From: Paenirhodobacter hankyongi
GTDB taxonomy: Bacteria; Pseudomonadota; Alphaproteobacteria; Rhodobacterales; Rhodobacteraceae
Length of the DNA: 64,000 nt
Direction of reading: 5' to 3'
NCBI RefSeq assembly: GCF_003664585.1
Contig: NZ_RCHI01000017.1
Location: 28,037 to 92,036, forward strand
Shown piece after piece: positions 31,600 through 49,611 of the stretch. How positions within the stretch are numbered: position 1 is the stretch's first letter; each line of letters opens with the position of its first letter. The position numbers and the translations under genes were made by a program. Below the pieces are notes generated by a model that saw only the letters and a list, made by a program, of their open reading frames with translations, did not search any database and was not told the origin of the DNA.

Positions 31600-32157
31600 A
31601 TGTCCGGTCCCCGTTTCGCAGCCTTTGCCGGTTCCTGGAGCCGGCCGTCCAAGACCCGCGCGCTGGTCGAGACCGCAGCGGCCCGCGCCACCGCCCGTTT
31701 CGGCGGCCATGCCCATGTGTTCGATGTCGATGACCTCGGCCCCGGCTTCGGCGCCCTGCGCGAGGGTAGGGATGCCACGCTCGACCGCCATCGGGCGGCG
31801 TTCCTCGCGGCCGATGCGCTGATCGTCGCAAGCCCGGTGTTCAAGGGCAGCTACACGGGCCTCTTCAAGCATTTCCTCGACCTGATCGAGCCCGAGGCGC
31901 TGGCCGGCAAGCCCGTCCTGCTGGCGGCCTGCGGCGGCGGCGACCGGCATGCGCTGGTGATCGAACACCAGCTGCGGCCGCTGTTCGGCTTCTTCGAGGC
32001 GATCACCCTGCCGACCGGGCTCTATGCCTCGGCGGCCGATTTCGCCGATGGCGCGCTGCGCGCGGGCCCGATCCTCGAACGGCTTGACCGCGCGGTGGCG
32101 CAATTCGCCCCGCACCTTCCCCACACCGTCGCCGCGCCAGTGCGCGTGGCCGGCTGA
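31600..32157 (+). CDS. msuE: NADPH-dependent FMN reductase (MsuE/SsuE family)
   Basis: 185-residue flavodoxin-fold reductase that supplies reduced FMN to the two-component monooxygenases encoded downstream. AGSWSRPSKTRALVE near the N-terminus, SPVFKGSYTGLFKHFLDLIEP (about residues 82-102) and ALVIEHQLRPLFGFFEA match MsuE-type reductases. GGAG lies 6 bp upstream of the ATG at 31600. First gene of a seven-gene operon ending at 39005. Confidence 0.85.
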   Translation: MSGPRFAAFAGSWSRPSKTRALVETAAARATARFGGHAHVFDVDDLGPGFGALREGRDATLDRHRAAFLAADALIVASPVFKGSYTGLFKHFLDLIEPEALAGKPVLLAACGGGDRHALVIEHQLRPLFGFFEAITLPTGLYASAADFADGALRAGPILERLDRAVAQFAPHLPHTVAAPVRVAG

Positions 32158-32171
32158 GACCGGAGACCCAG

Positions 32172-33626
32172 ATGACCACCCAAGCGAAGAAACGCATCAT
32201 TCTCAATGCCTTCGACATGACCTGCGTTGGTCATCAGGCGGCCGGCACCTGGCGGCATCCGTCGAGCCAGGCATCGCGCTACAATGACCTCGAGTATTGG
32301 ACCAACCTCGCGATCGAGCTGGAACGGGGGGCTTTCGACAGCCTGTTCATCGCCGATGTGGTGGGCGTCTATGACGTCTATCGCGGTTCTGCCGAGGCGG
32401 CGCTGCACGACGCGGCGCAGGTGCCGGTGAACGACCCGTTCGGCGCGATCTCGGCGATGGCGGCGGTGACCCGCAACCTCGGCTTCGGCATCACCGCGGC
32501 GGTGACCTTCGAGCATCCCTATCTGCTGGCCCGCCGGCTCTCGACTCTCGATCACCTGACCAAGGGGCGCGTGGCGTGGAACGTGGTGTCGTCCTACCTC
32601 GACAGCGCGGCGCGCAATATCGGCCTTGACCGGCAGATCGGCCATGATGCGCGCTATGACCTCGCCGAGGAGTACATGGAAGTCACCTACAAGCTGTGGG
32701 AGGGCAGCTGGGAAGAGGGCGCGGTGCTGCGCGACAAGGAGAAGGGCATCTTCACCGATGCCACGAAGGTGCACCCGATCCGCCACGAGGGCGAGTATTT
32801 CAAGGTGCCCGGCTTCCATCTGTGCGAGCCCTCGCCGCAGCGCACGCCGGTGATCTTCCAGGCCGGGGCAAGCGCGCGCGGCCGGGCGTTCGCCGCCCGT
32901 CACGCCGAGGCGATGTTCGTGCTGGCGACCAGCCCCGAGACCGCGAAGAAGCTGACCGACGCGATCCGCGCCGAGGTGGCCGCGGCCGGGCGCGAGGCCG
33001 ACAGCCTGAAGATTTTCGCGTTGCTCACCGTCATCACCGGCCCGACCGACGAGGCGGCGCAGCGCAAATACGAGGAATACCTCGATTATGCGAGCGCCGA
33101 GGGGGCGCTGGCGCTTTACGGCGGCTGGACCGGGCTCGATTTCTCGACGCTCGATCCCGATCAGCCGCTGACCGCGGTCGAGAACGACAGCCTGCGCACC
33201 ACGCTGGAATCGCTTGCCGCCGATGGTGCGGCCTGGACGGTGCGCGACGTGATCCGCAAGCGCGCGATCGGCGGGCTTGGCCCGGTGCTGGTCGGCGGGC
33301 CGCAGACGGTGGCCGATGCGCTCGAACGCTGGGTCGACGAGGGCGGCATCGACGGCTTCAACCTCGCCTATGCGATCACCCCGGCCTCGACCACCGATTT
33401 CATCGATTTCGTGGTGCCGGAGCTGCGCAAGCGCGGCCGCGCGCAGCAGGGCTATGCCCCCGGCACGCTGCGCGAGAAGCTTCTGGGCGATGTGGGCGGT
33501 CTGGCCCGCGACAGCCACCCTGCCGCGCAGTGGCGCCGCCATTACATCGGCCGCGAGAGCGTGGCCGACGCCTCGCGCCCCTCGGCCTTCGAAGGGCTGG
33601 GCCATGTTTCGGAGGCGGCGGAATGA
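32172..33626 (+). CDS. NtaA/SnaA/DszA-family FMNH2-dependent monooxygenase (first of three)
   Basis: 484 residues of the bacterial-luciferase fold. The family blocks are RIILNAFDMTCVGHQAAGTWRHP, YNDLEYWTNLAIELERGAFDSLFIADVVGVYD, GRVAWNVVSSYLDSAARN and EPSPQRTPVIFQAGASARG. Relatives oxidise dimethyl sulfide, dibenzothiophene sulfone, nitrilotriacetate and similar compounds, using FMNH2 from a partner reductase. The gene follows msuE by 14 bp and overlaps ssuD, so an organosulfur substrate is likely; the exact one is unknown. Confidence 0.87.
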   Translation: MTTQAKKRIILNAFDMTCVGHQAAGTWRHPSSQASRYNDLEYWTNLAIELERGAFDSLFIADVVGVYDVYRGSAEAALHDAAQVPVNDPFGAISAMAAVTRNLGFGITAAVTFEHPYLLARRLSTLDHLTKGRVAWNVVSSYLDSAARNIGLDRQIGHDARYDLAEEYMEVTYKLWEGSWEEGAVLRDKEKGIFTDATKVHPIRHEGEYFKVPGFHLCEPSPQRTPVIFQAGASARGRAFAARHAEAMFVLATSPETAKKLTDAIRAEVAAAGREADSLKIFALLTVITGPTDEAAQRKYEEYLDYASAEGALALYGGWTGLDFSTLDPDQPLTAVENDSLRTTLESLAADGAAWTVRDVIRKRAIGGLGPVLVGGPQTVADALERWVDEGGIDGFNLAYAITPASTTDFIDFVVPELRKRGRAQQGYAPGTLREKLLGDVGGLARDSHPAAQWRRHYIGRESVADASRPSAFEGLGHVSEAAE

Positions 33627-48245: not shown

Positions 48246-48270
48246 GATGTCTTCCCGGAAAGGACAGCCG

Positions 48271-49611
48271 ATGACACGCTTCTCCCTCCCCCGCTGGGCC
48301 CTCGGGCTCGAGGACCCGAAAGCCGTCGGGCGCTACATGGAACGGCTTGACACCCATGGCGTCTCGCGGCGCGACTTCCTCGCCATGGTCTCGGCCGGCG
48401 CGGCCGCCACCACCTTTGCCGCCGCGGCTGGTCTGCCGCGGGTGGCGGTCGCCGCGCCGAATGGCAAGCTCGCCTTCATCTCGGCCTTCATGTCGAACGA
48501 ATACAACCAGATCCTGAACGGAGCCTTCGAGGCGGCGACGCAGGAACTGGGCTTTTCCTATGTCGGGCTCGACAGCCAGTTCGACGGGGAACGCCAGTTC
48601 AACCAGTTCGAGCAACAGGTCGCGGGCGGGGCGCAATCGGTGGTCTTCAACCTCGCCGACGGCAGCACGATCAAGGGGGCGGCGCGGGTCGCCGAACAGA
48701 ACGGAGTCTTCATCGGCAATGTCTGGGACAGCCTGCCCTGGTTCACGCCGTTCGAGGGCTCGGACTATTATACGCTCTACACTCTGCCCGAGGAATTCGA
48801 GGCGCATCGCGCGGTGACCGCGAGGCTGCTCGCTGCGGTGATCGAGAAATTCGGGGGCGGCGACATCATCGGCGTCACCGGCACGAACGGTACCCTGACC
48901 GACCGGCAGCGGTCGGCGGGGCGTGACGACGCCTTCCGCGACTTTCCGAAGACCCGGCTCGTTGACCAGTTGCCGGGCAAGTGGAACCGCGAGGATTCGC
49001 TGAAGGCGACCGAGGATCTGCTGACCCGGAACCCGGGTGTCGTCGGTGTGGTCGCGCAGAACGATGACGTTGCGCAGGGCGTGATTGCGGCGATCCAGGC
49101 GGCGGGACTGCGGCCGGGCGAGGATATTCTCGTGGTCGGGGCAGACGGCACCAGTCTCGGTGCGAAGTCGATCGCGGCCGGTCGGCAACTCGCCACCTCG
49201 GGCAACAGCCCGGCCTATGCGGCGGCACTCCTTGCCGGGCGGATCTATGACGTCACCCACGGTTGGGTGCCGCGCGCCTCGGAGCGGATGCTGAACTGGC
49301 GGTCGCTGACCGTCACGAAGGAGAATGTCGGCGGCTATCTCGATCGCTATGTCGATAACGACGGGGTGCAGCCCTTTGATTACCGCAAGATCTCCAAGGT
49401 CCTGCATCCCGACGACTGGGATCCGCAGGCGGAGATCTTCCCGCTCGACGTCGATCATGCATGGGAGGGGATCGCGAAGCCGCAGGGCTGGACCTATCCG
49501 CAGGCCTATCTGGATGCGAAGACCGGCGGCGAATGGGAGCGCGTGCGCGCCGAATACGCAGATCACTACAAGATCAAGTTCGACGGTCCCTCGCCGAACC
49601 GCAAGGCCTGA
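48271..49611 (+). CDS. Tat-exported CUT2-type substrate-binding protein, copy 2
   Basis: 446 residues, exactly the length of copy 1, with the Tat arginines also at 33-34 (SRRDFLAMVSAG). Long matching blocks (DSQFDGERQFNQFEQQV, WDSLPWFTPFE, FGGGDIIGVTG, HGWVPRASERMLNW, FDYRKISKVLHPDDWDPQAE) show a tandem duplication 25 bp apart. AAAGGA precedes the ATG by 7 bp. Divergence between copies suggests two ligands or affinities. A strong hairpin follows. Confidence 0.88.
   Translation: MTRFSLPRWALGLEDPKAVGRYMERLDTHGVSRRDFLAMVSAGAAATTFAAAAGLPRVAVAAPNGKLAFISAFMSNEYNQILNGAFEAATQELGFSYVGLDSQFDGERQFNQFEQQVAGGAQSVVFNLADGSTIKGAARVAEQNGVFIGNVWDSLPWFTPFEGSDYYTLYTLPEEFEAHRAVTARLLAAVIEKFGGGDIIGVTGTNGTLTDRQRSAGRDDAFRDFPKTRLVDQLPGKWNREDSLKATEDLLTRNPGVVGVVAQNDDVAQGVIAAIQAAGLRPGEDILVVGADGTSLGAKSIAAGRQLATSGNSPAYAAALLAGRIYDVTHGWVPRASERMLNWRSLTVTKENVGGYLDRYVDNDGVQPFDYRKISKVLHPDDWDPQAEIFPLDVDHAWEGIAKPQGWTYPQAYLDAKTGGEWERVRAEYADHYKIKFDGPSPNRKA

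Follow-up and report, generated by a model that had tools for sequence, protein, structure and literature searches.

We examined a 64,000-nucleotide stretch of Paenirhodobacter hankyongi DNA, referred to here as the window, which covers positions 28037–92036 of a 92,036-base contig (NZ_RCHI01000017.1) in a genome of 3.8 Mb. It contains an island of 14 genes (31600–49611) that encodes several flavin-dependent oxygenases of organosulfur type, a flavin reductase, an ATP-binding cassette (ABC) importer of the CUT2 type and, as its unusual part, a paralogue of RibB, the 3,4-dihydroxy-2-butanone-4-phosphate synthase of riboflavin synthesis. Because RepA/ParA-, RepB- and RepC-type genes are present on the contig (window positions 19909–23417), it is likely to be a repABC plasmid or part of one.

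Genes and layout of the island

Gene families were assigned with NCBIfam and Pfam models (Table 1). All 14 genes claimed by the initial annotation were present, and every family named for them was backed by these models. The coordinates place the genes in three same-strand runs: unit 1 (31600–39005, + strand, g01–g07), in which g02/g03 and g05/g06 each overlap by 4 bases; unit 2 (39172–42190, − strand, g08 and g09); and unit 3 (42781–49611, + strand, g10–g14). We infer that each run is one transcript, as the initial annotation had proposed. Its further claim of strong hairpins at the unit ends survived in part. The stretch around the hairpin between the convergent units 1 and 2 (39095–39175) folds at z −3.7, but the stretch 49605–49700, with a perfect 8-pair GC stem at 49635–49654, folds at z −1.7 only, and terminator-like sites over the region were not above shuffles (7 found, shuffle mean 8.2). 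No Rfam family reached its gathering score anywhere in the window.

Table 1. Predicted genes of the island and the hairpin between units 1 and 2, in window coordinates. Scores are in bits, with the model cut-off after 'vs'; the start codons of g01, g08, g13 and g14 were picked by us.
Feature	Position	Strand	Assignment	Basis
g01	31600..32157	+	MsuE-like flavin mononucleotide (FMN) reductase	TIGR03566 205.4 vs 212.5; PF03358
g02	32172..33626	+	DmoA-type monooxygenase using reduced FMN (FMNH2)	TIGR03860 545 vs 279.7
g03	33623..34750	+	SsuD alkanesulfonate monooxygenase	TIGR03565 585 vs 518
g04	34761..35624	+	amidohydrolase_2 family protein	PF04909; best solved relative 3irs, uncharacterised
g05	35637..36278	+	RibB, 3,4-dihydroxy-2-butanone-4-phosphate synthase paralogue	TIGR00506 200 vs 177
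g06	36275..37690	+	FAD/NAD(P)-binding protein	PF13454 112.8
g07	37785..39005	+	SfnB/MsuC-like oxygenase, acyl-CoA-dehydrogenase fold	TIGR04022 252 vs 430.9
hairpin	39134..39159	+	between convergent units 1 and 2	11-pair stem
g08	39172..40566	-	NtaA/DmoA-family monooxygenase	TIGR03860 531 vs 279.7
g09	40922..42190	-	SfnB family sulfur acquisition oxidoreductase	TIGR04022 571 vs 430.9
g10	42781..44400	+	CUT2 importer ATPase	PF00005; best NCBIfam models under sugar-specific cut-offs
g11	44397..45395	+	CUT2 importer permease	PF02653
g12	45431..46810	+	NtaA/DmoA-family monooxygenase, HcbA1-like	TIGR03860 470 vs 279.7
g13	46905..48245	+	CUT2 binding protein 1	PF13407 113.6
g14	48271..49611	+	CUT2 binding protein 2	PF13407 113.1

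The closest assignment in unit 1 is that of g02. It is identical over its whole length at 350 of 470 residues (about 75%, 822 bits) to structure 6ak1 (E9JFX9), the dimethyl sulfide (DMS) monooxygenase DmoA of Hyphomicrobium, an enzyme that requires a flavin reductase (PMC9259527). The single flavin reductase gene of the island is g01, whose open frame begins at 31519; it just misses the MsuE equivalog cut-off and is therefore called MsuE-like. The closest solved structures to g03 are those of Escherichia coli SsuD (1nqk and 1m41, about 511 bits). As g07 falls below the SfnB equivalog cut-off, it is filed only as SfnB/MsuC-like, its best solved matches being 8cda, described as a 'probable monooxygenase', the methanesulfinate monooxygenase 6u76 and DszC. 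No relative of g06 was found among solved structures; it is 43–44% identical to proteins from the related clusters of Klebsiella and Chimaeribacter. The initial reading of organosulfur-type flavin oxygenases served by one FMN reductase is thus supported, with g02 more closely named as DmoA-type.

In units 2 and 3, g08 is DmoA/LadA-like (DmoA match 524 bits, LadA 489 bits), and the closest solved relative of g12 is the hexachlorobenzene dehalogenase 6lr1 (541 bits), followed by an alkane monooxygenase. The solved relatives have, by name, DMS, alkanes, hexachlorobenzene, riboflavin, dibenzothiophene sulfone and aminocarboxylates as substrates, and because these differ so widely the substrates of g08 and g12 are not readable from sequence. 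The importer's single ATPase and single permease are accompanied by two binding proteins with 64% mutual identity, each of which has a twin-arginine-like N-terminus with an SRRDFLA motif. Among the matches listed for g10, g11, g13 and g14 (for g10 the best 25 of 188), no sugar-specific NCBIfam cut-off was reached. Unit 3 has no flavin reductase gene of its own within the window.

The island does not have the layout of an ssu operon, because the SsuABC importer is not among the 14 genes, as had been noted initially, and no SsuA-family match in the genome exceeds the cut-off (11 weaker matches, best 108.7 versus 163.5 bits). Nor is it a dsz (4S) operon, since the DszC model gave 104 and 201 bits versus 850 and g02, g08 and g12 resemble DszA only distantly. 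A complete pathway of the Acinetobacter baylyi ADP1 type and an SBP56 methanethiol oxidase were searched for in the genome, and neither was found. The layout is non-standard, as the initial annotation had stated, but it is not unique, given the recurrence of the unit 1 core in Sinirhodobacter and Paracoccus and the related clusters of Klebsiella, Chimaeribacter and Methylocystis, all described below.

RibB in unit 1

RibB (g05) shares 99 of 195 residues with E. coli RibB (1g57), and DDEDRENEGD, RPGHLFPL and GHTEA, which we take to be active-site markers of RibB, are all intact in it. Homologues of RibD, RibE, RibBA and RibH lie together on another contig of the host (C49). As g05 is only 45% identical to the host's RibBA, and groups in the trees described below with copies from another genome of the genus (G003), Paracoccus sp. 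MA and Phaeobacter, it was likely acquired and not duplicated within the host.

We considered that an extra RibB might escape FMN riboswitches acting on the housekeeping rib loci, and dropped this idea when none was detected. At Rfam gathering thresholds, 11 housekeeping and 11 extra RibB loci of Rhodobacteraceae, the Methylocystis, Paracoccus sp. MA and Phaeobacter loci and the window all gave no FMN riboswitch, and hence none that could account for a need for an extra copy.

Recurrence of the units in other genomes

A genome scan with g06 gave eight loci, one from Sinirhodobacter and seven from Paracoccus. The FMN reductase, a close relative of g02 (82–99% identical) and SsuD were each present in six of these eight loci, SsuD being in split or overlapping pieces in one of them (L018), and the amidohydrolase was nearly whole in five; RibB was present in none of the eight, apart from a remnant in one. 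Two further loci do carry RibB: that of Paracoccus sp. MA (80% identical), which is without the amidohydrolase, and that of G003 (86%), which is without SsuD and the amidohydrolase. These ten and the window make up the 11 homologous loci referred to below. Matches to g06 of at least 48% identity occurred in 4 of the 101 genomes searched, the window's genome included.

Three further loci (L012, L015 and L076) have unit 1 and unit 2 next to each other; the unit 2 monooxygenase adjoins unit 1 in two Paracoccus loci, and in G003 the unit 2 pair lies a few kilobases from unit 1. Unit 3 was not seen in the unit 1 relatives examined, and a search of 336 other alphaproteobacterial genomes with its binding protein gave no hit at E 1e-40. 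A relative of unit 3 is found on a plasmid of Sinorhizobium sp. BG8 (L029:5558-19643), where the importer and three binding proteins stand in a row with three g12-like enzymes, another NtaA-family enzyme and a g07-like oxygenase of SfnB-family type. The island thus looks like a composite of three units, assembled from parts. The initial annotation had left a choice between a multi-substrate set and one pathway; because the units occur apart from one another elsewhere, the former is the more likely.

Neighbours of RibB genes on plasmids and in Rhodobacteraceae

We then considered whether extra copies of ribB lie close to genes for flavin-dependent oxygenation elsewhere, scoring a copy as linked when a flavin reductase or a luciferase-like monooxygenase was encoded within 5 kb, and leaving the window itself uncounted. 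Of 246 Rhodobacteraceae genomes sampled, 13 had two or more RibB matches. Full-length copies were taken, one further genome (G034) and two housekeeping copies were added, and fragmentary second matches (G016, G202 and G234) were omitted. Linkage was found for 8 of 10 extra copies, compared with 1 of 12 rib-operon copies (p = 0.0015) and 0 of 20 control places (p = 8e-6). Without G034, which was included though only one copy was found there, linkage of the extra copies is 7 of 9. A flavin reductase lay near seven of the ten and a monooxygenase near four, some of these neighbour matches being weak, such as one of 28% over 145 residues in L056 and one of 23% in L070. The 40 places used as controls, 20 in each of two samples, were chosen by hand and not at random. 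The one linked rib-operon copy (L065:5114-13397) belongs to a second set in genome G176, consisting of RibB, a RibH-like gene, a flavin reductase and a luciferase-like enzyme, and was counted as a rib-operon copy on account of the RibH-like gene.

On plasmids, RibB was linked in 11 of 12 cases, the exception being Burkholderia cepacia; these 12 annotated plasmids were hand-chosen, mostly one per genus, from 60 spread rows of 304 records, with the plasmid background uncounted. Among further RibB plasmid loci, 7 of 10 were linked (exceptions: Rhizobium Pop5, Streptomyces and Allomeiothermus). On a Phaeobacter plasmid (L020:10169-18659), the neighbours of ribB encode a luciferase-like enzyme and flavin reductases, and about 6 kb further on there is a small gene with the annotation riboflavin kinase. 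In the open-licence literature of PubMed Central (PMC), we recognised no paper that treats ribB as part of flavin monooxygenase operons.

Two trees of RibB were compared, one of 44 rows and one of 43, in which three housekeeping rows had been added and four long or degenerate rows dropped; both were built without actinobacterial housekeeping RibB. The window's RibB fell inside a supported clade of 20 extra copies in the first tree. This clade was not recovered as such in the second, where the window's RibB grouped with six others, from G003, Paracoccus sp. MA, Phaeobacter and three actinobacterial plasmids. Well-supported branches force at least two label changes in the 44-row tree and at least three in the 43-row tree, which speaks against a single origin of all extra copies and fits with RibB having been recruited more than once. 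We believe that the repeated association between ribB and genes for flavin monooxygenases on plasmids is worth following.

Flanking genes

No regulator-type gene is among the 14 of the island, in agreement with the initial annotation; LuxR-, LuxI- and LysR-type genes follow downstream (50.2–53.1 kb). Its further conclusion, that a distant sulfur regulator must be in control, found no support in the analysis. The island end is adjoined by a 145-residue protein with an autoinducer-binding domain, in which a DNA-binding domain was not found; the same segment (50248–52129) also encodes a LuxI-type synthase and a protein of LuxR type in which both domains are present. The LysR-type regulator at 52204–53085 is the nearest such gene downstream of the island. 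Upstream (23806–31307) lie a GntR/FCD regulator, a gene of glutamine synthetase type and an ABC importer similar to those for polyamines.

A proposed role for the island and its RibB

The gene content suggests a scheme in which FMNH2 for all oxygenases of the island would come from one MsuE-like reductase, g01, acting on FMN. DMS would be cleaved to methanethiol and formaldehyde by g02, reduced organosulfur compounds would be oxidised by g09 and g07, and SsuD (g03) would release sulfite from methanesulfonate and other sulfonates. The substrate range could be widened by g08 and g12, and the importer could take up a substrate, which may be the one used by g12. RibB, co-expressed with the monooxygenases, would add four-carbon riboflavin precursor beyond that supplied by the host rib operon.

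The explanation as a whole, a composite organosulfur-oxidation region on a plasmid-type contig in which ribB raises a shared flavin pool, is the one towards which we lean, with some reserve. Its firmer half is that the island enzymes scavenge sulfur from DMS-type compounds and alkanesulfonates, which we consider probable. That RibB serves flavin supply, as argued from its position, intact motifs and recurrence, seems to us slightly more likely than not. We advance more tentatively the broader possibility that RibB acts as a mobile module for cofactor supply in operons of two-component flavin monooxygenases. Plasmids and accessory regions would have recruited it repeatedly, from several RibB lineages, so that oxygenases sharing FMN as a diffusible co-substrate come with a riboflavin step of their own, and the DmoA–SsuD–RibB operon would be the organosulfur case.

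Several observations weigh against this explanation. RibB is intact in 3 of the 11 homologous loci, the window included, and broken in one, and is therefore an optional part of unit 1 loci. The broken copy, that of Sinirhodobacter ferrireducens (L011:9853-10001, in a draft assembly), has an internal deletion of about 500 bases that leaves only both ends, despite neighbours that are 98–99% identical to g02–g04 of the window. Three of the ten extra copies in Rhodobacteraceae lack the catalytic motifs (L066, L072 and L074); two of these three lie near flavin reductase genes and are among the eight positives, and with the motif-lacking copies removed linkage is 6 of 7. In a second sample, comprising 51 RibB copies in 25 genomes of other alphaproteobacterial families (five loci being truncated), 4 of 30 extra copies were linked, but none of the 21 rib-operon copies or the 20 controls (p = 0.13), and three of the four positives came from three genomes of one genus. 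A class-wide rule of RibB–monooxygenase linkage thus failed, and the claim is kept to plasmids and Rhodobacteraceae; many of the extra copies outside Rhodobacteraceae may be ordinary stand-alone housekeeping RibB. As for the sulfur chemistry, no SfnG-type dimethylsulfone monooxygenase exceeded the cut-off in the genome, the best match (140 bits) being the SsuD gene, and no SBP56 methanethiol oxidase was found there, which leaves the ADP1 route incomplete in this host. In ADP1, group D oxygenases oxidised DMS but no luciferase-like (group C) enzyme detectably did so (PMC13352529), and the DMS step in the island therefore leans on DmoA alone. Finally, one point in favour of the explanation needs qualifying. 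A RibBA-like gene lies between oxygenase and flavin reductase genes in the ipp cluster of Rhodococcus sp. D-6, and its transcript rose by a log2 value of 4.46 beside 4.46 and 3.93 for its neighbours, but 3,735 genes rose in that experiment (PMC12442392), so that this rise is weakly specific.

Some of these points would be accounted for if ribB were a passenger, that is, an acquired spare riboflavin gene within a predicted operon that is being lost in relatives, in which case sulfur scavenging would still stand. Its absence from the eight g06-scan loci save for one remnant, the whole rib operon already present in the host and the weak linkage outside Rhodobacteraceae all favour a passenger. Nevertheless, we regard a passenger as doubtful in view of the intact motifs, the 80–86% identity of the copies beside the same genes in Paracoccus sp. 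MA and G003, the linkage in Rhodobacteraceae and on plasmids, and trees that speak for more than one recruitment. The initial description of an island with its 'own flavin supply' is overstated all the same: a RibB gene is indeed present, but it is one enzyme of the pathway, the host rib genes lie elsewhere, and no more than 3 of the 11 homologous loci have RibB intact. A different objection is that the island joins three unrelated modules, only units 1 and 2 being for sulfur and unit 3 serving a different, perhaps sulfur-free compound that is alkane-, chloroaromatic- or aminocarboxylate-like. The solved relatives nearest to g12 and the distribution of unit 3 and its binding protein agree with this, but unit 3 would then operate without a flavin reductase gene of its own in the window, and the Sinorhizobium relative also holds a g07-like oxygenase; we consider such a division unlikely. 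Still less should be made of a single pathway by which one complex compound would serve as carbon or nitrogen source. The importer, amidohydrolase and several oxygenases stand in one place, and units 1 and 2 adjoin in L012, L015 and L076, yet SsuD, the amidohydrolase, the FMN reductase and RibB vary among unit 1 loci, which fits better with enzymes of overlapping function, and no ring-cleavage or coenzyme A-type catabolic gene was recognised among the 14, so that this reading is improbable.

If the composite organosulfur region with a flavin-supplying ribB is correctly understood, a bacterium that lacks SfnG would have, on DNA of plasmid type, a further way of obtaining sulfur from DMS and sulfonates. 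A simple idea also becomes testable: where the enzymes of an operon use flavin as a diffusible co-substrate, the operon may have to include a gene for making flavin.

Comparison with known systems

The likeness to Hyphomicrobium DmoA extends from g02 itself to the adjoining flavin reductase gene. The island differs in that this partner is MsuE-like and its gene shares a run with those for SsuD, RibB and SfnB-like proteins; the comparison is with the Hyphomicrobium enzyme. In A. baylyi ADP1, group D and group C oxygenases take DMS through dimethyl sulfoxide, sulfone, sulfinate and sulfonate to sulfite, and Dms1–3, an SfnG-type enzyme, MsuC and SsuD are all served by one MsuE reductase (PMC13352529). 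The island likewise combines oxygenases of the luciferase-like and acyl-CoA-dehydrogenase-fold classes with a single flavin reductase gene, and the ADP1-type classes present are group D oxygenases (g07 and g09), SsuD (g03) and an MsuE-type reductase (g01, just under the cut-off). It lacks SfnG and adds a DmoA-type enzyme, RibB and a CUT2 importer, the comparison being one of enzyme classes.

Clusters in Klebsiella and Chimaeribacter contain ssuD, an FAD oxidoreductase, a luciferase-like enzyme, a major facilitator superfamily (MFS) gene and an acyl-CoA-dehydrogenase-fold gene, with sfnG in one of them. They bring together SsuD with g06-like (43–44%) and g07-like (57%) proteins, as in unit 1, but have sulfonate-type binding proteins and, in the stretches read, no RibB, amidohydrolase or CUT2 importer. 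A plasmid of Methylocystis iwaonis carries an amidohydrolase gene, ssuD, an acyl-CoA-dehydrogenase-fold gene, ribB and msuE in a row, its proteins being 48% identical to g04 and 44% to g01; there, however, the synthase is of RibBA length and not a single-domain RibB, a divergent sfnG is present, and a DmoA-type gene was not seen in 10.5 kb.

In the lux-rib operon of Photobacterium, riboflavin genes are joined to a luciferase-like flavin monooxygenase operon; several rib genes there accompany light emission, whereas the island has one rib gene and oxygenases of organosulfur type. The ipp cluster of Rhodococcus differs in serving alkylphenol degradation by a group D oxygenase, and in the portion of the paper cited its authors list the RibBA-like gene merely as a 'synthase' (PMC12442392). 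Engineers already overexpress RibBA to feed enzymes that use flavin as a co-substrate (PMC10958861), and the plasmid survey suggests that bacteria may act likewise, plasmids of Paracoccus, Methylocystis, Phaeobacter, Rhodococcus and Azospirillum being the places in which to look.

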